Below the pieces are notes generated by a model. It was not told where the DNA came from. It saw only the letters and a program-made list of their open reading frames with translations, and did not search any database. This document shows, piece after piece, positions 30,420 through 43,335 of a DNA stretch of 64,000 bases. The position numbers and the translations under genes were made by a program. Numbering within the stretch: position 1 is the first letter of the stretch; each line of letters opens with the position of its first letter. Source of the stretch: Parietichytrium sp. I65-24A (taxonomy: Eukaryota > Sar > Bigyra > Thraustochytrida > Thraustochytriidae); contig BLSF01000032.1 in the NCBI GenBank assembly GCA_012862575.1, positions 62,001-126,000 on the forward strand, written 5' to 3'.

Positions 30420-33400
30420 CTATTCGTCAGTCAGGTCAATGGTTTCTTCTGCAATTGGTCGTCCGCTTTTCTCCCACCCAATCACGGCAGGGATACTGCC
30501 TTCTGGCCAAGGAGACAAGGGCATCTCGGGAGTCACAACGTCGAGGATGAACGCTCGCAATGCCATGGTAGGAAATGGGGCCTCGGGGACATCCAGTCTA
30601 TGCATCAAACACCAAGCATTCAGTAGTACATACGCACCGCAATCGTTTGAGTCATGGGGCTGTGTTGCGCACGTTTCGTCTGAAATCTCCCACTTCGAGC
30701 TATCCGCACAAATCTCGGGGTTGATCTCATGCAAATTCTGAATCTCCCACCTAGCCATGTCTTCAAGACTTTCGACTATTGATGGAAGCGAGTTATACAG
30801 TGTTATTCTCTGCCGTGTTGGTTCAACAACCAACAGTACGAAGTGATTTGAAAACCAAAAAACCGAAAATAGCAAGTCGGCGTCTGTACCCCCCACTTCT
30901 GACCTCCACTTCTGACAATAATGCCTCCGCGTTTTATCCTTTTTCGCCCATATTCCATTGTGATCGCGCTCAATCTCTACGGAATATCTGAAAGCCCAAC
31001 GGGGATTCCCTTCAGCCCACGAATCTTGCATACACAAGAAGAAGCGCAAAAGGAGTTGAATGCCCAGCATTCTTCCTTCAGTCAGGAGCGGATCTAGGTC
31101 CCCTTTGCCGAAGATACAGAAGGGACTACTAGCTCGGCAGGGATGACCAGAAGAATAGTTCGCCAGCTCACTGTTAAGCTGGTCGGCATTCTGCAGAGTC
31201 AAGAATTGGTAGTGCTTCAACTTTTGTTGCCTTTCCTCCGTCAGCTGCACCTTTAGCCCCACTTGCGTTATTTCAGTTACCTCCCTTCCAGCGAGCCGAT
31301 CAAATGTCGCGAGTTTCAGACGCTTCACTTTGACATCCTCATCAGGTGCTGGCAGGTCACATGAGGCGCCCCATCGCCGGCCGTGATGCGCGCTACGCGG
31401 AAGACCACACGTCTGGCAAATCTTTCGATAATCTACGTGAACAGGTGCGTTCGAGGTCTCTGCACAGCTCAGATCCATCTTAAATGGTGCCATAAGCCGA
31501 GCCATACTATCAGTTTCAGCCTCTGAATCGAATCTAGTTGATAGTACGGCATTTTTTGCATTTGTGAGACTGCCAATGTCCTGTTTGTAAAAGCCAATGT
31601 CGTCAAGAACCGAGTTCTCCAATGTGTCGTGAAGAGTGTAGTCTCCGACTAAGATGTCTTCGACCACATCTTCAGATGCTGGATTGTCAAGGGGATCTAC
31701 TGGCGCCTCAGGCAAGGGGTCGTGCTCGAAATTCGAGATTTGGTTTTGTCGCAAGAACAAGGACGTGCTCAGTCTTTGACGAGACTCTCTGAGAAACTCA
31801 GTCACGTGAGACACATTCTTGAAAGCAAGGTGCTGGACGACACCATTTCGCTTGGAAATAACTGGCTTTCCATTATGGCGATCTAAAATGCTTCTGACAG
31901 CAAAGTTGAACTTTCTCGTGAGCAGTTCCGCACTCAGATTTGCAGCACCTTGAGACCTTGCAATATTGAACAATATGCCGCGCTCTATCACCCCTGAGTT
32001 CCGATTGTTGAAAGGAGCTGGGACATTGTTGATGCCTGCCCGTGCCACGAAGTGCTCATACTCGCTTCGATTAGGTGCGCTAGCAGGCCTTTTCCGCTTC
32101 GTAAAAGCTTCTGGGTTTTTGCTTGGGGGAGCAATGTCCACCAAGTCGTCTGGAAAGACGCAGCAATATGTTGGGGAATTATTTTCGCGCGGGACATACT
32201 GCAGTTCCATTGAAATGGTCGCAAACGGTTCGTCTGCATCTCGAGTTATCCAAAGCAGGTCGCGCGTATCCAACAGCTTTCTCCCGTTTTTCTCGAACAG
32301 TGTCAAGCAAAGGCGAATCCTCAAGCCGTATTCGAGCGCGACAGCAAGAAGGCTCAGGTAGCTTACTCCCTTACACTGCTCGTTCGGAGTAAGCTCCTTT
32401 CGCTTCCATTGCGGCTCCTGGCACTCTTGCTCGCCGAGAACAGTGACAATCAGGCCTCTGAGCCTCTGCACCACGACGACGCGAGGAATCGAGCCCTCAA
32501 AGTCATCCTGACTCAAGTAGTTTCCTTTGAGCAATATCTCGCGCAGGACTGGCACCCACGCGTCGCTCGCTTCTGCAGCTTGAGCAGCAGTCTCGAGTAC
32601 CGCAACGCGAGACGCGGCGATGAACTTCCTCGTGGACTCCCCCTTGCCATATCTAAACACATCCCCAGGAGAAGCTTTGTTCTTGTCTGTAAGAGGAAGG
32701 GCCCCAAAGTTAATATTCCTGCCAATCTCAAACAGGCTGGCTTTGGGATCTTTTCTGCCATGACTACTAGCCCAACGCATGTGCTCGCCTATTACACCCT
32801 TAATTGTTTTGGGGTCGTCGGCAAGGTCCCAGGGGGGGAAAAAATTCGTTACTCGATTGAGCAATAGGTGGTACTCTTCGGAGTTTTCAGATGACGATTT
32901 CAGAGAACCTAAAAGAGTGCAGAAAAACGCACGGTCGCAATCCCGTCCATCGTTCACCACCCACGTTTTCGGCTTGATACTCGTGCTATGAGCCTCCGTA
33001 CGCGCACTTTGAACGTCAGTCGTCCCATTGTCCGATTCAGAAATTGCACCCTCTACCCGATCATTCTCCTCCACCAATCTGGAGAGTCGAAGCACCGCTT
33101 CAAGTGTGTCAACGGCTTGCTGCTCCACATATTGACGATTAGGTTTGCCGTCTGGGCTTACACCAATTCCAGTGTCTTTCCTCTTGGTAAAACCGAATTG
33201 CAAGTTGTCTGAAGGTAGTACACTTGCTTTGATGGCTGGGAAAGGATATTGCTGCCGATCGCATTCGTAACCTCGCAAATAGCTATTCATCTGAAGTTGG
33301 GCCTCACGAGATTGCAGCGGTAAGAGCTTATCCCCCGTCAAGCTTGACAAAACACTTCTTGATCGATGAAATGCTCCCTCCAAGATCAGCATCTCTACTC

Positions 33401-33644
33401 GTTGTGAGGAGATGAAACTTTGATTTTCGCAGAGTCCGCGGACGACGCGAAAGAAATTCTCCAGGTTGGAAGTTGATCGAACACTTCGCAATGTTCCGTC
33501 TTGATTTGCATAAAACAATGGTCGTCCATCCTCTATAGGGTCCGAGAGACAACCTAACGCGATGTGTTTCAACATTCTACCAACGAATACTTCAAAATTC
33601 ACCTTTCCCCCTTTGAAAAGAAAGTGCTGGATCAGAACTCTCAC
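30420..33644 (-). pseudogene. Transposon protein, transposase tail plus Ulp1-type SUMO protease
   Basis: 1,074 codons open, without an ATG at its 5' edge, so it is a continuation rather than a free-standing gene. The N-terminus (GCLSDPIEDGRPLFYANQDG, then RSTSNLENFFRVVRG) resembles the end of a transposase. The middle includes a Cys/His cluster, CQTCGLPRSAHH...GASC. The C-terminal 200 residues are a C48 cysteine protease: His in FSNHFVLLVV, Asn in LYNSL, Gln and Cys in TQPHDSNDCGAYVL. The last residues, EETIDLTDE, form a textbook SUMO-interacting motif. All four protease positions are intact, so this half seems less decayed than the transposase. Confidence 0.65.
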
Positions 33645-34719
33645 GTAGCTCTTTCAGTCGCTCAGGAATATTCTTCAGCGCCTCAATTTTTCCGGCCCCA
33701 ATACCTTTCACTCCTACTTTATCCTGTTCCCAATGGCGAGAGTTTTCTCCAGATTTTGCAAGAAATGTCAGACTTCGAGCAAAATTTGCCTTTTTGCGCT
33801 TCGTTTCCCACTCTTGCAGAGCCTCTTCTTCTTGTGTCGCTGGCGCTGGTGCTGAGCGTTTCTTGACCCGCTGATATTCCGATGACTGTTGTCGAAGACG
33901 CTGGTGCTCCATCATTTCTAGTATTGAGTTGGATTTTGGTGTTTTCTCGCTCATCTGGCTCTGGCTTTGTGCTTTGAATGCCCCTCGGGTCACGACGGCA
34001 AGATATTTTTTATGCTTTGTCTCATACACCTGGATGTACCTTCTTTGCAGCACGTTGGCAATATTTCGCGGCCCAAATGCGGCCATCTTGTACACATCGT
34101 CGATGAAGTCGGTTGTGTAGGCGAGGTTCTGACGGGTAACGATGCTGAAAGATTCTCGCACAACTGCTGGGAGACTCCTTATGACTTCGTCGTCAGTATT
34201 CAGGAAACTCTTGTGGCAGCCTGTGCAAGTCATCCTGGTGTACACCAAAATAAAGTTGTTTGACAGCCCAATCACATTTCGAAACTTCTTCTTTCCGCCT
34301 CTCGAGAACAAACATGACATCTTGCAAAATGGACATGCTATGTACGGCAAAACTTTTTCCGAAAACTGTCTCAAAGGCTCCCAAACAAAAACATCCCGCA
34401 GGTAAAATGATGCGCGGAGCTCGCGAGGGTTGCCACCTCCTTCCTCGCGCGACCTGTCCGGGGCATTGAACCACTGTGGCACAGCCGGGCCACGGGGCCT
34501 ATAAATGACTTTCTCGTGACATTGCAGAGCGAAGCTGATTTGCTCTGACCCGTGCGTCTTCCTGGCTCCCTGAAAATCATCCATTTTCTGGCTTCCCATC
34601 CTATCTTCGCAGCGGTATAAAGCTGGCAGTCCTCCGATCTTCCTTGAATGTTCTTCTGTGGCTGGGCACGTCAGACTTCCATCCGTCAAAAACCTCCAAG
34701 CTCGAGTCTTTCCTTTCAC
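33592..34719 (-). pseudogene. Transposon protein, DUF6729-like N-terminal part
   Basis: Open for 375 codons, with the first ATG at 34599. The core is WEPLRQFSEKVLPYIACPFC, then RNVIGLSNNFILVYTRMTC and TGC, giving two CxxC pairs for a zinc ribbon, then SLPAVVRESFSIVTRQNLAY. This order (W-P, CPxC, an Arg-Val block, CxxC, LP-x-F) is that of DUF6729, a domain found at the front of transposases. The C-terminal 100 residues are basic and helical. The frame closes before any transposase catalytic core. Confidence 0.6.
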
Positions 34720-35154
34720 TCCAAAAAGCTTTTGTCTTCATTCACACGTTTTCGGAAAAAGGTGTATTCGAGATTTAGAAAAATACTATACCACGAATAC
34801 TGCAGGTCCGAGTCGGAGAAACTAGACCAATTTTTTTATCTACCCTGGTTCTGGTACACGTTTTCGAAGAGACCCAACCTTTTGTAAGTGCGTCTGAAAC
34901 AAGATCGGAAATGGGGTTCATCCTCTCGTGCTACTAGCTAGTCGTCGCACGCCTACGGCTGGCGCCTGGCAGGGATTTCTCTGCAGGGGCGGGAAGGTAA
35001 TTGACCTGAGCCACTTTCGGCCTCGCAACTTTCACCGGATTACTAGTTAAACGGCTATCCACCTTCACGAGAAGACGAAGCCAATGAGCAGAAGGTGAAA
35101 AGAAAAGAAAATTGGAAAGGTTTTTAGTTAGAAAGACAAGTCAAATGAGAAACT
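34720..35154. other. Spacer between transposon and fusion gene
   Basis: 435 bp with no coding support. The other end of the transposon should be here; no inverted repeat matching 30125-30400 was found. Confidence 0.5.
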
Positions 35155-38100
35155 TTACTGCGGAAGGACAGGCGCATTCTTCAAGATCATGATACGAATC
35201 TCGGTCATGTGCTCGATTGCAGAGCGAACGCCTTCACGGCCCAAGCCTGAATCCTTCACGCCACCGTAAGGCTGCGCATCGATCCTCAAGGAAGGGACAG
35301 AGTTGATGCACACTCCGCCTGCTGCGATTTCTTCAAAGGCATAGTTGGCTTTGTTCCAGTTATTGGTGAAGACGCCAGCTTGAAGACCATAGCGAGAGTC
35401 ATTGACGCGAGCGACCGCGTCCTTGAAATCATCGTAACGCTCAATGCAAGCTACGGGTCCGAAAGCCTCTTCACAATAGATTTTGCAATGCTTTGGTACA
35501 TTCTCGAGAACCGCAGGAGAAATAATGTTTTCTCCAAGCCTTTCGCCACCGCACAAACGTTTGGCACCAGCAGAAACTGCTTCTTCGATCCACTCGCACA
35601 ACCTATCAGCCGCATCCTTTGAGATGACAGGGCCGATAAAAGTGTTTTCGTCTTTTGGATCTCCCACAATTAAATCCGAGGTGCGCTCCACCAAGCCGTC
35701 TCTGAACTTGTCGTAGATATCGCTGTGCACCATGAGACGCTGTACACTGATGCAGCTCTGACCAGACTGATAGAATGCGCCGTGCACCACTCCGGAAAGA
35801 GTTGTGTCTTCGCCTTGCGAAAAATCGTCGACAATACATGCCGCATTGCCGCCGAGCTCCAAAATGACTGGCTTCTTGCCAGCTCGAGCTTTCATTGCCC
35901 ACCCTGCATCGGCGGAGCCAGTAAACGACAGTAGCTTGAGGCGGTCGTCCTCGATCAGGGCGTTTCCTGCGTCGCGCGTGCAAGGCATAATTGAGAAGGC
36001 TTCCTTTGGCATATTTTCATCCTTGCTAAGGATGTCGGCGATGAGGAGCGCACCGAGTGGGGTCTTGGATGCTGGTTTCAAGATAAAGGGGCATCCGGCA
36101 GCAATAGCTGGAGCAATTTTGTGCGCCACGAGGTTCAAAGGGAAGTTAAATGGGGAGATAAATGAGCATGGACCAATCGGGAAACGCTTGGTAATTCCGC
36201 TGACTCCTTTCGACGCTTCAGAGACCTGAAGATCCATGTACTCCCCGTAAATGCGGACAGACTCTTCCGCTGCGAGCTGGAAGGTGTCAATTAATCTGGT
36301 AACTTCGCCGTACGAGTCATTGATTGCCTTGCCGTTTTCAACTGTCAAGAGCATTGCAAATTCATCTCTTCGCTTTTTGACTTCCTCCACAACATTCAGC
36401 AAAATTTCCTTTCTCTTGAAGGGTGGAAGATTCCGCATCTTCTCTGCACCAGGGCCAGCGGCGAGCTGAATTGCCTCATTGACTTGCTCCTCAGAAGCCT
36501 TGTACACGTTGCAGTAAACCTCATTGGTGTATTTGTCCATCACTTCCAACTCTTCCTCCCCCTCTACAGGCTGACCTCCGATGTAGATCGGGACTTTACA
36601 GCCACGCTTAAACAGGAACTTCTCGTCGTCCACCTCTTTTGCATCCTGGCTAGAAAAGTCCATGCTCTGACACCGGCTGTGATGACCAGAGCGGGCCTCA
36701 TTTTCAGCGTCCGAGCTAGAATCGGCGCCCTCAGACTCCTCCGGCTTGTCTTGTTCTTGGTGGCCAATTTTGTCGACGCTGTTCTGCCTTGACCGGTCAG
36801 AATGTGCGTCTGTTTCGCTTTGAACAGTCGTGGCGTCGTCGTTTTCGTCCAAGTCGAGGTGTGGGAACTCTTTCATGAGCCTCTTCTTGAGTTTGATCTT
36901 TTGTTCCGCCGCGCAGCTCAAGGTCTGCTCAGACGACTCGTACGACACTGGCACTTCAATGACGTGGACACCGTCTTGGTTCAAACAAGAGTTGAGAAGC
37001 TGCTCAAGTTTGGAAGGTCCATCTACCCTGTAGCCTTTGGCTCCGAACGCTTCTGCATGCTTCACAAAGTCTGGATTCTTCAGATCGAGGCCGAATTCTT
37101 CCAGGTCCCCTTTGTGTTGCTTCCATTTAATCATGCCAAGGGCGTCATCGTTGAGAATGATAACAACCAGACTGAGGTTATGCTGCACTGCAGTGCTGAT
37201 CTCAGCACAGTTCATCATCCAGCCACCGTCTCCAGTTACGGCGACCACGTTGCGTGATGGGTGAGCCATCTTGGCGGCGATTGCGTTTGGAAGCCCTGCC
37301 CCCATTGTTGCCAGCGCATTGTCCAAGAGCACATTATTGGGCAAAATTGACTTGAAGTGCCGGGCTGTCACACGATCGATTCAAGAGTTAGAACATGGTC
37401 AACAACTCTTCAAAATGAATAAGAGCAGATTCGAAAGCCAAAACTTACCAAAGAAAACTTTGTACAAGCCGTTGTCGAGCGACAAGATGATGTCGTCCGG
37501 CACGGCGGCTCGAACCTCTTTCACAACGCGAAGAGGACTGAGAGGGAAGCTTTCGTCTTCCATTCCCTTTGACAAGATTTTGTCAGTGTACGACTTGATG
37601 TGCTTGAAGACACTGGTGTCGAACGATTTGCCTCCTCCTTTTCCTTTGAGGCGTTCCCCCAGCATCCACATCGTATGTGCGACATCTCCAACCACTTGAT
37701 GGTCTGGGTACCAGTGGTTGGTGACAGATGCACCAGTGAGGCCGATGTGAATAATCTTGCTGCTCTGGTGGCCGCAGAGAATAAATGGCGGTTTCTCCGT
37801 TTCATCGTGCCCGATGGAAATGATGCAGTCAGAGACCTCCACAGCGGCGTGGATGAGGTCTTTGGAAGGGATAGCGGCGCATCCCATGAAGAGGTCGTAA
37901 TCTTCGCGAATCACGCCCTTGCCCATTTGCGTGCAGATCACTGGAAGGCGATGGTTCTGCACGAAAAGCTGTATAGCTTGCACAATGTGGGGGCGGTTGG
38001 CAGCCGCGCCTATAAGCAGAATGGGGCGCTCTGACTCAAGAATGACGTTCACGACTTCATTCACGTCTTCTTCATCCGGCTTCGGGCGTTGAATGGTAGT

Positions 38101-38757
38101 CGGCTTGAACACAAAGTCTTTTGCGGGTTGAGACGCGACATCTTCGGGAATTTCAATGTGTACAGGCCCGTTCTTTTCGGTCATTGCTTGCTGAACGGCG
38201 TTCCGAATGGTGCTAGCGAGCACAAGGTTGTTGGATACGCTGGTGGTAAACTTGGTGATTGGGCGCATGAAAGCTACTATATCTACCACCTGGAAGGAGC
38301 CCTGCATTGCATCTTCCGCGCCTTTCTGCCCGGTGATGAAAAGACAGCTAAAGCCGCCAAGCTTTGCGAAAGCTACCGGCGTTCCCAAGTTTGTTGCCCC
38401 AGGTCCCAGTGTGCTCAATGCCACGCCGAGTTTTCCCGTGAGTCGACCGTATGTCGCAGCCATGAAGCCTGCTGCCTGCTCATGACGAGTCGTGACGAAA
38501 GTAATCTTCTTGGACTTGCGCAAGGCTTCCATCATGGGGATGTTCTCCTCTCCTGGGATCCCAAAAATGAACTCCACGCCCTCGTTTTCGAGGGCTTTGA
38601 CCAGCAGATCTGACGAAGTAAAGTTCTTCGATCGGTGGCCAGCTTTCGATTTACTTGAAGAAGAAGCGGCGGAGCTCGCGCGAGTACGTCTCTCCTTCGA
38701 GCTCTTGAGCTTGGTCCACTCAGATTCAGCAATCATGTCCTCATCCATCGTCGCCAT
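35155..38757 (-). CDS. Fusion of acetolactate-synthase-like ThDP enzyme and aldehyde dehydrogenase
   Basis: One gene, two exons: 38757-37449 and 37364-35155. The GT-AG intron 37448-37365 lies inside the ThDP domain, and splicing gives DNGLYKVFFA-RHFKSILPNN, in frame, for 1,172 residues. Residues 45-610 are a ThDP enzyme: catalytic Glu in RHEQAAGFMAATYGRLTG and a cofactor motif GDGGWMMN...LNDD. After an acidic Ser-rich linker, residues 695-1165 are an NAD(P) aldehyde dehydrogenase: ISPFNFPLNL, FTGSADAG, Glu in ILELGGNAA, catalytic Cys in GQSCISVQR, and EEAFGPVACI. The ThDP half probably cleaves or decarboxylates a 2-oxoacid to an aldehyde, which the second half oxidises. The substrate is unknown. 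No targeting signal is clear. Confidence 0.9.
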
Positions 38758-39994: not shown

Positions 39995-42136
39995 TTAGAG
40001 CTTGGCTTGGAACTTGGAGCCGTTGGATTCCCAAAACTTTGACAAGTTTTGGTTGCTCTTGACACAGTCGACGAGAAGCTGGCTAGGCTTGAAGTATTCA
40101 GCCTGGGGGAACTTTTTCGAGTAGCCCTCCAGAGCCGAGAGGATCTTTGGCAAGCCAATCACATCGGCGTCAAACATGATTCCACCCTTGTACCGAGGTG
40201 TGTTATAGCCGTGCACGAGCACAACGTCAATGTCAGCTGGGCGGGTCGCAAATCCACCCTCGAGAACCTTGAAGCCCTCATTCATGGTGGTGAAGAAGAG
40301 ACGCTCAAAGATCTCGTCCTTAGTGACCTTGCGCGGATTGGTGATGCCAAGCTTCTTACGGGTCTCTGCGATGCGCTGGGAGACCTGTGGGTTGCTCGTC
40401 CTCTTGCGGTTCTTATCGTAGTCATACCAGCCTCCAGAGGTCTTCATTCCCTGTCGGCCCTGCTCCAACAGCCAGTCTTGCACATTGGTCTCTGGGTTGT
40501 ACTGGCCACGCTTCTTGCGAGCTTCGACACCAATGCCAAGGCCGGTAAGATCAGTGAGCTGGAATGGTCCAAGTGGCATTCCGTAGTCCGTTACGACCTT
40601 GTCGATCTCTTCGATGGTGGTGTCGCACTCCATCAGAATGTTGCGAGCTTCCACACCCTGGTTGGCCATCATGCGGTTTGCGACAAAGCCGTGGCAGTTG
40701 CCTACGAGCACAGACCATTTGCCGATCTTGGTGCCGATGTCCATGGCGGTGGCGATCGTTGTTGGCGAAGATTTGGCTCCGCGGACTACCTCGAGAAGAG
40801 GCATCACGTTTGCAGGAGAAAAGAAATGCATACCAATGACATCCTGTGGACGCTTGGTTGCGCTCGCCATCTCATCGATGGAAAGGAAGGAGGTGTTACT
40901 TGCGAGAATGCAACCTTGCTTGCAGGTATCGTCCAACTTCTTGAAGATCTCCTTCTTGAGATCCATGTCCTCGAAGACAGCCTCGATCACGAGGTCCGCG
41001 TTTTTGATGTCGTCATAAGAAGTCGTTGTGGAGAAGCAGGCGAGGGCTTTGTCCACGGCGGCCTGGGTCTTGCTCTTGCGCTGCACACTGCGAGCATAGT
41101 TGGCCTTGATGACAGACATTCCTTTGTCGAGAAACTCTTGGCTGCGGTCAAGCATGATGACCTTGACGCCCTTCTCCGCGAAGTTCATCGCAATTCCTCC
41201 AGCCATGAGACCTGAGCCAATCATGGCGACAGTGGAAACCTTGTTTGGCTTTGCCTTGAGGCCAGGAACCTTTGCAGCTCCGCGCTCAGCAAAGAAAACG
41301 TGCTGCAGAGCGCGTGCTTCAGGAGACTCGAGGAGCTGCTTGAAGAGTCTGCCTTCGGTTTCGAGGCCCTGGTTGAAAGGCTGCTTGCACGCGGCTTCCA
41401 CGCAGTCGATGATGCGTTGTGGGGCAGGCTGTCCCTTTCTCTTCATACTCATTGCCTTGCGAGTTTTGTCGAAGATCGCAGGATCCTCCGGCTGTGGGCA
41501 GGGCATCTCGGAGATGCGTCGGCCCTTGTTGGTAGGGTTTTCCTGTGCCATTTTCTTGGCAAACTCGATGGCGCTGGGGATGAGATCCTTGTGGTCAACC
41601 ACCTGGTCGACCACCTTTGTCTTGTGCGCCATAACTGCTGGAACGTGGTTTCCGCTGACCATGAGGTCCATAGCGAGCTTTGGGCCCACGAGGCGAGGCA
41701 GGCGCTGAGTTCCTTCCCCGCCAGGGAGAAGACCGATGTTTACCTCAGGGAGACCCACAGCGCCGTTCTTGGCAATCATGCGGTAATGGCAAGACATAGC
41801 AAGCTCGAGTCCACCGCCCAGAGCAAAGCCCTGAATGGCGGCGACGACTGGGACGTTGAGGTTCTCAAAGTATTCCGTGAATCGGCGCTTTGGGTATCGT
41901 GAGTGCTTCTTGTTCAGGTCCACCACATCTGCACCAGCGCAAAACGCACGAGATCCCGCTCCGCGCACCACGACAGCCTTGACATCCTTCCTCTTCTCAA
42001 TCTGCTCAGCGGCGTCTTCGATTCCGAGCTGCACTGCGTTCGAGAGCGTGTTCAGTGGGAAATGGTCCAACGTCACCACCGCAACTCCGTCCGAGCGGAA
42101 CTCCACCTCCACCTTGTTCGTGCCTGGCGCGCTCAT
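39995..42136 (-). CDS. EHHADH: Peroxisomal multifunctional enzyme (enoyl-CoA hydratase / 3-hydroxyacyl-CoA dehydrogenase)
   Basis: 713 residues from the first ATG, one exon. The N-terminal hydratase/isomerase domain (residues 1-200) has AFCAGADV, the oxyanion segment QGFALGGGLELAMSCHYRM and the catalytic Glu in LPEVNIGLLPGGEGTQRLPR. The NAD-binding domain begins at about 300 with IGSGLMAGGIAMNFAEKG; the 3-hydroxyacyl-CoA dehydrogenase catalytic His is in MHFFSPANVMPLLEVV, and GNCHGFVANRMM follows. The protein ends in AKL, a type 1 peroxisomal targeting signal, so it is the peroxisomal L-type bifunctional enzyme catalysing steps two and three of beta-oxidation. Length matches the animal enzyme (about 720). 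With PEX2 and a PEX26-like gene in the same window, an active peroxisomal route is clear. Confidence 0.95.
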   Translation of the reverse strand: MSAPGTNKVEVEFRSDGVAVVTLDHFPLNTLSNAVQLGIEDAAEQIEKRKDVKAVVVRGAGSRAFCAGADVVDLNKKHSRYPKRRFTEYFENLNVPVVAAIQGFALGGGLELAMSCHYRMIAKNGAVGLPEVNIGLLPGGEGTQRLPRLVGPKLAMDLMVSGNHVPAVMAHKTKVVDQVVDHKDLIPSAIEFAKKMAQENPTNKGRRISEMPCPQPEDPAIFDKTRKAMSMKRKGQPAPQRIIDCVEAACKQPFNQGLETEGRLFKQLLESPEARALQHVFFAERGAAKVPGLKAKPNKVSTVAMIGSGLMAGGIAMNFAEKGVKVIMLDRSQEFLDKGMSVIKANYARSVQRKSKTQAAVDKALACFSTTTSYDDIKNADLVIEAVFEDMDLKKEIFKKLDDTCKQGCILASNTSFLSIDEMASATKRPQDVIGMHFFSPANVMPLLEVVRGAKSSPTTIATAMDIGTKIGKWSVLVGNCHGFVANRMMANQGVEARNILMECDTTIEEIDKVVTDYGMPLGPFQLTDLTGLGIGVEARKKRGQYNPETNVQDWLLEQGRQGMKTSGGWYDYDKNRKRTSNPQVSQRIAETRKKLGITNPRKVTKDEIFERLFFTTMNEGFKVLEGGFATRPADIDVVLVHGYNTPRYKGGIMFDADVIGLPKILSALEGYSKKFPQAEYFKPSQLLVDCVKSNQNLSKFWESNGSKFQAKL

Positions 42137-43335
42137 CCTTGCAGCTTCTCTCTTCTTGTCCAAATCCAAGCTCTCCTGCGCCGACTTCTTTCAGCCTTTC
42201 TAAACTCTGACCTCTGCTCTTCTCTGAAAGAGGACTGCCGTCTTGTCTTCACATGCCAATCTTTCAACTCTGTATCTCCAAGTTAGCTAAGTCCGACTGC
42301 GTCCTGGCAAACATTGGCGAATGAAAATAAATGTTTCCCTTCCCTGTGCTAGTGTACTCGTTAAGTGCGCTCTACTCCTCACTTCTCTGTCCGTGCACAA
42401 GAAACACTCAAGTGTTTGATGAGTTTGATGTTTGATCCGTCGAGAGTCTCGGACTTTTCGCGAACGCTTTAGCTTCGCAGGACCTGCGTTTACTTGCGAA
42501 TTGGAGTGAGAAATTAGAGAACATAGACTTGCCTGGTTGTTTTCGGTCTTTGCCTTTGCCGAAAGAAACGATAAGAATGTTGTCGCAAGTGCCATGATGA
42601 CCTCTTTCTTCTCGTAGAATGGATTTATTTTGTGGAGGATTTCATCTTGTAAGAGGGGCGCTAACAAGTGCGCTCGACAAGATCTGTTTTCCCAAGCGAG
42701 GGTCGTAGTATGTCTTATACGTTTGATAGAGTGGTGGGGAACGTTTTCCGGCCTTCAGTCCGTCCCAAACGCGCGTTCTGCGATGTGTAAGCTGTGTCCT
42801 GAAGGACCAAACGCTGCTCTGCGGTGCTAGTTCTTGAAGGAAGAACCGATATCGAACAAGAACCGTCTACACCAAATACTACCAAATGTCTCTGTATACA
42901 TTAAACGAAGTTTTCACTTGAGCAACATCGCAATATTTAGCGCAATGCGACGAAACCGGTTGTATGAAGGACAAGTAAAACATTGAATCATCTCTGCTGC
43001 AAATTCTCTTAAAAAATTGTTGTTTTGTCCTTGCAATAAGTACTTATTGCAATGGCACAATGGCACTAATACATACTAATATGCACTAACGGCACGTTCG
43101 AGCTGCGACAGAGCGTCACGTCACAGGCACCTTCCAGTTACGAGACGTTTGTCGTAAGTCTCGATAAGGGCAATTGGTTGGCGGTGGTGGTAAAGGTGAA
43201 CGGAGGAGTATACGGAGAAAGGGCGTTAACACACTTTGCAACTTTGCAAAGCGCAAAGAGGACGAAAGAGACGAGGAGTAGCGCGTGAGCGGGTCGCGTG
43301 CGTGGTTAGTTTTGCCCGCTGTCCGGGACATCAAA
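42137..43335. other. Divergent intergenic region
   Basis: Between the start of the multifunctional enzyme (minus) and FCF1 (plus). The minus-strand frame at 42287-42667 has no recognisable content. Sequence 42880-43090 is AT-rich. No gene supported. Confidence 0.5.

Follow-up and report, generated by a model that had tools for sequence, protein, structure and literature searches.

In cyanobacteria, ogdA and ssaD form one operon, and 2-oxoglutarate decarboxylase followed by succinic semialdehyde dehydrogenase (SSADH) constitutes an alternative route through the tricarboxylic acid cycle, as described in PMC5160925. For the Microcystis 2-oxoglutarate decarboxylase (KGD), PMC10418658 names the active-site residues and gives 2-oxoglutarate contacts docked on a predicted model (Gln254, Val382, Lys386, Ala408, Leu467 and Lys471). 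On the dehydrogenase side, moss ALDH21 is reported to be a tetrameric, cytosolic, NADP+-dependent SSADH (PMC7823795), and Lys154 and Ser157 are reported to set the NADP+ preference of the cyanobacterial SSADH from Cyanothece (PMC7510979). Here we describe a gene on the minus strand of a 64,000-nucleotide stretch of Parietichytrium sp. I65-24A (contig BLSF01000032.1, positions 62,001 to 126,000; hereafter the window, with positions counted from its first letter) in which a thiamine diphosphate (ThDP) enzyme is fused to an aldehyde dehydrogenase (ALDH). Judging from sequence comparison, we propose, with a probability of roughly 0.5, that it encodes a 2-oxoglutarate decarboxylase joined to an NADP+-preferring SSADH and that it was made from a bacterial gene pair.

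The fusion itself is an observation. Splicing and translation give exact coordinates (Table 1) and a frame of 1172 amino acids without internal stop, beginning at the ATG at 38757. The intron has a G+C content of 38%, against 53% and 51% in the two exons; if it is retained, translation stops at codon 453, and its removal restores a conserved block that aligns without gaps to bacterial homologues (LYKVFFAR in the fusion, VYKIWFAR in locus L002). Pfam places TPP_enzyme_N at residues 48-162, TPP_enzyme_M at 232-365, TPP_enzyme_C at 428-574 and Aldedh at 707-1160 (456 bits). The catalytic residues are intact in both halves: Glu93, GDG 481-483 and ND 508-509 in the ThDP enzyme, and Asn843, Glu939 and Cys974 in the ALDH. 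Splicing, Pfam and alignment thus bear out an earlier reading made from the sequence alone, which had described an 84-bp intron and a complete ThDP domain running in frame into a complete ALDH with its catalytic residues. A single open frame of 741 codons spans the C-terminal part of the ThDP enzyme, the linker and the ALDH. Because the joined region is one open frame in one exon, the join does not depend on the intron or on how splicing was assigned.

The same sequence-only reading had noted an acidic, Ser-rich linker of about 85 residues and had suggested that it might be a regulatory tether. The linker is present (25% Asp/Glu, 13% Ser, 22% hydrophobic residues), but its length is nearer 100 residues, and the regulatory role finds no support in CK2-like sites, which are not enriched (4 in the linker versus a mean of 3.9 in shuffled sequences). 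The protein begins MATMDEDMIAES and ends APVLPQ. No mitochondrial or peroxisomal signal is evident at either terminus by eye, no predictor having been used, so the enzyme is probably cytosolic.

A scan with the ALDH half over the genomes of bacteria and archaea gave 80 loci, the best 80 of 585 confirmed stretches. At 53 of them the ALDH21-like gene is preceded on its own strand by a ThDP relative, no more than 900 bp away in 52 cases, and in 50 of the 53 pairs the matched regions are 43-318 bp apart. The pair occurs in Alteromonas, Burkholderia, Sphingomonadales, Planctomycetota, Desulfobacteraceae and others, with identities to the fusion of 35-50% for the ThDP enzyme and 52 to about 57% for the ALDH. 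None of the 51 loci with a long ThDP match has the two fused. A bacterial gene pair acting in sequence had been suggested from the window alone, together with a homologue search for separate bacterial neighbours; separate neighbouring genes, in the same order as the two halves, are what 53 of the 80 loci show. We regard sequential action of a decarboxylase and an ALDH on some 2-oxoacid as probable. Among the 52 close pairs, any other neighbour family is shared by 7 at most (the representatives shown are from Alteromonas loci). The surroundings thus vary, and the two genes appear to form a self-contained unit. By eye, the seven recurrent neighbour clusters resemble transporter, ferrochelatase, HflK/HflC, methyltransferase and GST genes, most neighbours being unannotated.

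More distant arrangements of the same kind exist. On Rhizobium plasmids, a ThDP gene of the PRK08322 family stands beside an ALDH that is 34-36% identical to that of the fusion. When we compared plasmid records with the ThDP protein of locus L054, which carries a wider KGD motif (see below), 1731 records matched, 25 were listed and ten of these were inspected. An ALDH-type gene adjoins the ThDP gene in four of the ten: it lies upstream in Vibrio and Leisingera and downstream in Croceicoccus, and in Haloarcula the ThDP gene overlaps by 4 bp a gene annotated as NAD-dependent succinate-semialdehyde dehydrogenase. In Sulfitobacter (L092:2133-6281), gdhA, encoding an NADP-specific glutamate dehydrogenase, ends 21 bp upstream of the KGD-motif ThDP gene; an aminotransferase gene comes next there, on the other strand. 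Among viral contigs, the ALDH alignment found one contig, which has no ThDP match, and the KGD-motif ThDP query found none.

All trees were built with a quick method and without bootstrap. In the ThDP tree the fusion joins the solved chain 13bb, with long branches. Both halves sit on long branches, and their identity to the bacterial proteins in the trees is at most 50% (ThDP) and 56% (ALDH), so the gene was not acquired recently from those lineages. The fusion probably derives from the two genes of this widespread bacterial pair.

The ALDH half resembles ALDH21. Among the best 60 of 257 solved chains, its nearest relatives are 5j6b, 5kf0, 5jry and moss ALDH21 (5mz5), at 542-553 bits (545 for 5mz5), with 55% identity to 5j6b and 51% over the domain to the Physcomitrella enzyme. 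It reaches 314.2 bits on the canonical SSADH model TIGR01780, short of the cut-off of 646.35, and falls under every NCBIfam cut-off among the best 25 of 41 models. The catalytic Cys, Glu and Asn and two arginines, Arg793 and Arg1130, are conserved in all 80 bacterial homologues, and both arginines align with Arg residues of moss ALDH21. These are presumably Arg121 and Arg457 of that enzyme, which are presumed to bind the substrate carboxylate. Lys866 and Ser869 of the fusion fit the positions of Lys154 and Ser157 in the Cyanothece enzyme, so NADPH is a likely product. Moss ALDH21 and the ALDH half group together in the quick tree, with 96% support in the Shimodaira-Hasegawa-like approximate likelihood ratio test (SH-aLRT), but this joins two long branches and the grouping may be false; when placed apart, the fusion and moss ALDH21 are both nearest by path to the same bacterial row, L075_a.

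NF006187 (PRK08322) gives the ThDP half 679.5 bits against a cut-off of 509, and it is the only model above its cut-off among the best 25 of 55 NCBIfam models. We compared it with KGD through published residue numbers, since no cyanobacterial KGD sequence was obtained; none is among the 25 of 1731 plasmid records listed or in the viral contigs. The register uses a fixed shift of 47 over 17 named residues, with Glu50 falling on Glu93 at a shift of 43. The ThDP core of KGD (Glu50, GDG...ND and Met410 in MaKGD numbers) is kept as Glu93, Asp482, Asp509 and Met457, most of it being common to ThDP enzymes generally. Of the two docked lysines, Lys386 corresponds to Lys433 of the fusion and Lys471 to Lys518, and in the alignment both positions are Lys in all 51 bacterial partners. 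The inspected plasmid relatives have Lys at the first position in ten of ten and at the second in nine (His in Leisingera). Acetolactate synthase (ALS) controls read differently, with Tyr/Gln in the ancestral catabolic ALS 9zgl, His/Gln in 24pi and Gln/Gln in the genome's own ALS, whose second position reads Trp in the ungapped register. Of the remaining docked contacts, Ala408 is kept, Val382 is replaced by Asn and Leu467 by Met, and Gln254 is unmatched.

Seven of the 51 partners (L024, L049, L053, L054, L057, L069 and L070) form a separate clade in the quick tree (87% SH-aLRT) and carry the wider KGD motif, GVGAHK or DVGAHK together with GLIxWKQ. At a single shift, 12-14 of the 17 named residues agree in six of these proteins and only 8 in L069, although the motif in its alignment (GVGAHKMW ... 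YGLIVWKQ) belongs to this type. As these seven are among the 51, an ALDH21-like gene partners both the KGD-motif proteins and the clade of the fusion; at L057 it lies 6.2 kb from the ThDP gene. On the quick ALDH tree, with 52 labelled rows and without a shuffle control, the type of ThDP partner switches at least five times, which suggests that the two ThDP types are interchangeable in function. The KGD-motif protein of L049 scores 754 bits on NF006187, far over the cut-off. The name of this model, "acetolactate synthase large subunit", is probably wrong for many of its members.

Together, these comparisons would assign the following steps. The ThDP half would release CO2 from 2-oxoglutarate and form succinic semialdehyde, which the ALDH21-like half would oxidise to succinate with NADP+ at Cys974, the two arginines presumably holding the carboxylate. 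The net result would be a bypass, free of coenzyme A (CoA), of the 2-oxoglutarate dehydrogenase (OGDH) and succinyl-CoA synthetase steps. By analogy, because cyanobacterial KGD and moss ALDH21 are each tetrameric, the fusion may assemble as a single tetramer that has two cores, which the flexible linker of about 100 residues could hold together while keeping the reactive semialdehyde close. That 2-oxoglutarate is the main substrate seems to us about an even prospect.

Several observations weigh against this assignment. At one shift the fusion fits 10 of the 17 named KGD residues, no more than the ALS control 9zgl (also 10), and the count was rejected as a discriminator for that reason; 13bb reaches 8, the genome's own ALS 6, the fusion-clade members L088, L002 and L100 11-12, and two haloarchaeal proteins only 8. 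The fusion differs from KGD at Val382, Ala384, His385, Tyr465 and Leu467, and its clade, 44 of the 51 partners, departs at Val382, Ala384, His385 and Leu467. Even in the KGD-motif clade Cys replaces Ala408 in seven of seven, and Gln254 is matched by 9zgl only among the proteins compared. At the lysine positions 13bb has Met/Lys, with Met at that of Lys433, and neither docked lysine is among the variants described in section 2.6 of PMC10418658.

The gene neighbourhoods add further points of this kind. No ThDP match was found at the remaining 27 loci. At three of these (L018, L040 and L043) the upstream sequence is shorter than 1.4 kb, but twelve others are covered for about 10 kb in both directions, so the ALDH frequently occurs without a ThDP partner. 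Conversely, six of the ten plasmid relatives, among them the Sulfitobacter one described above, lack an adjacent ALDH. In Streptomyces a glutamate synthase family gene follows the ThDP gene, in Pectobacterium and Roseomonas (L094:2397-5153 and L097:2495-5144) an AEC-family transporter gene is found directly upstream in place of an ALDH gene, in Octadecabacter no ALDH adjoins it, and in Halorussus an SSADH is encoded on the opposite strand at a distance of about 2 kb. The lysine pair is also present in relatives without an adjacent ALDH (L092, L094-L097 and L099), so it marks the family and not only its ALDH-linked members. The Haloarcula ALDH is only 31% identical to that of the fusion and lacks both arginines, and is thus another kind of ALDH. 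Finally, the Parietichytrium genome has two matches to the OGDH-E1 C-terminal family, one of them possibly a 2-oxoadipate dehydrogenase, and its contig C18 encodes an ALDH5-like SSADH (512.6 and 136 bits in two pieces on TIGR01780, whose cut-off is given above). We rejected the fusion as the sole route to succinate on account of these genes; with them present, the fusion enzyme would be an extra route. Our probabilities for both sequential action and 2-oxoglutarate were lowered slightly because 9zgl reaches the same count as the fusion and because some relatives have no neighbouring ALDH.

The same two-step logic could apply to another anionic 2-oxoacid, such as 2-oxoadipate, oxaloacetate, sulfopyruvate or phosphonopyruvate, with the matching aldehyde. 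The best NCBIfam scores of the ALDH half, all below cut-off, are to lactaldehyde, sulfoacetaldehyde, glyceraldehyde-3-phosphate and phosphonoacetaldehyde dehydrogenases, and two lysines with two conserved arginines would suit any anionic tail. We consider this rather unlikely, given that moss ALDH21 uses succinic semialdehyde (PMC7823795), that gdhA and SSADH genes are neighbours among the relatives, and that the recurrent neighbour clusters do not look by eye like sulfonate or phosphonate genes. The sequence-only reading had named pyruvate, sulfopyruvate and phosphonopyruvate among the 2-oxoacids to assay; the two active-site lysines and some of the gene neighbourhoods favour 2-oxoglutarate instead.

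It could also be that the ThDP half is a real ALS or a pyruvate decarboxylase, with the ALDH clearing acetaldehyde in a pyruvate-to-acetate bypass or acting on an unrelated aldehyde. The matching family model carries the ALS name, the nearest solved chain, 13bb, was deposited as an ALS, and 9zgl ties with the fusion in the residue count. However, the ThDP half scores 382.3 bits on the AlsS model TIGR02418 (cut-off 551.1) and 343 on the biosynthetic model TIGR00118 (cut-off 538.35), which refines the earlier description as acetolactate-synthase-like. A distinct biosynthetic ALS is encoded on contig C3 of this genome (TIGR00118, 643.8 bits), the two lysine positions are Gln, Tyr or His in the ALS controls, and a downstream ALDH would be of no obvious use to an acetolactate maker. 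We find this explanation quite improbable. An artefact, whether a faulty gene model or misassembly that unites two genes or a fusion that has decayed, is very improbable: the fusion is seen here in the genome sequence of one eukaryote, but the join lies within one uninterrupted exon, the catalytic residues checked are intact, the G+C and third-position G+C of the linker resemble those of both domains, and the window's three Ns (55918, 57802 and 58986) are far from the gene.

Table 1. Features of the fusion gene and of nearby reading frames, in window positions.
Feature	Position	Strand	Description
Exon 1	37449..38757	-	1309 bp; residues 1-46 N-terminal extension, PYR and middle domains, start of PP domain; catalytic Glu93, Lys433
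Intron	37365..37448	-	84 bp, GT-AG (GTAAGT...CAG); in-frame stop if retained
Exon 2	35155..37364	-	2210 bp including stop; rest of PP domain (GDG 481-483, ND 508-509, Lys518), linker, ALDH
Linker, residues 592-693	36595..36900	-	Between PRK08322 match (47-591) and start of solved-ALDH matches; coordinates from exon positions
ALDH21-like domain, residues about 694-1172	35158..36594	-	Arg793, Asn843, Lys866/Ser869, Glu939, Cys974, Arg1130
Peptidase-domain frame	30420..33653	-	1077 residues; C48/Ulp1 peptidase domain (32.6 bits); overlaps next frame
Overlapping frame	33592..34737	-	381 residues
FadB-type gene	39995..42190	-	731 residues; upstream of fusion gene, same strand

The window carries genes that mark its host as a eukaryote (ODAD1, tubulin-tyrosine ligase and RanBP1). 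No light-harvesting match was found in the genome, the control being positive in Synechococcus, and the host is probably non-photosynthetic. A search for elicitins gave no match, which says little, as the control genomes gave none either. Near the fusion gene, the C48/Ulp1 frame and the frame it overlaps are possibly mobile-element genes, and the FadB-type gene is an enoyl-CoA hydratase and 3-hydroxyacyl-CoA dehydrogenase fusion of a known bifunctional kind. Elsewhere in the genome, no match to the polyunsaturated fatty acid synthase PfaA exceeds its cut-off. A frame of 5583 residues on contig C66 (G000:C66:8562-22499, plus strand) has four matches to the PfaA ketosynthase region and three to a later region, all below cut-off, and resembles a very large type I synthase for polyketides or fatty acids.

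The sequence-only reading knew of no named enzyme with this fusion, in agreement with our search of the open-access literature, which found no report of a ThDP-ALDH fusion; subscription journals lie mostly outside its coverage. A term search of the main text of the oomycete domain-fusion paper PMC2705460 gave no acetolactate or thiamine entry. Nor did we find an open-access paper on the function of the PRK08322-ALDH pair, on which the passages of PMC8305402 consulted have nothing. We put forward tentatively, and at somewhat less than even odds, the wider picture of a eukaryote in which one protein turns 2-oxoglutarate into succinate without CoA and yields NADPH, alongside a normal OGDH, with PRK08322 proteins being 2-oxoglutarate decarboxylases, many with SSADH partners, far beyond cyanobacteria. 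If this is true, the fusion would be a natural Rosetta stone, tying a very common and probably misnamed bacterial ThDP family to its ALDH partner; the 2-oxoglutarate decarboxylase bypass of cyanobacteria, euglenids and a few others would be predicted to be widespread; and one-protein handling of a reactive semialdehyde would become testable. It would also provide, ready for use, a two-step enzyme that yields succinate and NADPH independently of CoA.

Among known systems, cyanobacterial OgdA/SsaD (SynPCC7002_A2770-A2771) resembles the fusion in placing a ThDP decarboxylase and an ALDH in sequence as a CoA-free bypass, and KGD has the two active-site lysines in common with it by residue number. 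However, OgdA and SsaD are not joined in one chain, the placement of the cyanobacterial ThDP enzyme with the fusion's sister clade is by motif and not by direct sequence comparison, and the Synechococcus SSADH 3VZ3 is absent from the best 60 of 257 solved chains for the fusion ALDH. The bacterial PRK08322-ALDH pair shares families, order and strand, but as separate genes without a linker, and moss ALDH21 (5mz5), which shares both arginines and the catalytic Cys, Glu and Asn, is a stand-alone protein. In eukaryotes, published accounts of Euglena and Rhabdomonas describe the same bypass of 2-oxoglutarate decarboxylase and SSADH; there the enzymes are separate and mitochondrial and the OGDH complex was not found, and we liken them to the fusion by description only. 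AdhE and other fusions of ALDH with alcohol dehydrogenase likewise join an ALDH to an enzyme sharing its aldehyde intermediate (PMC12454647), although the partner here is a ThDP enzyme. Set beside these systems, the chemistry is known, while its one-protein form and a possible renaming of PRK08322 look new.

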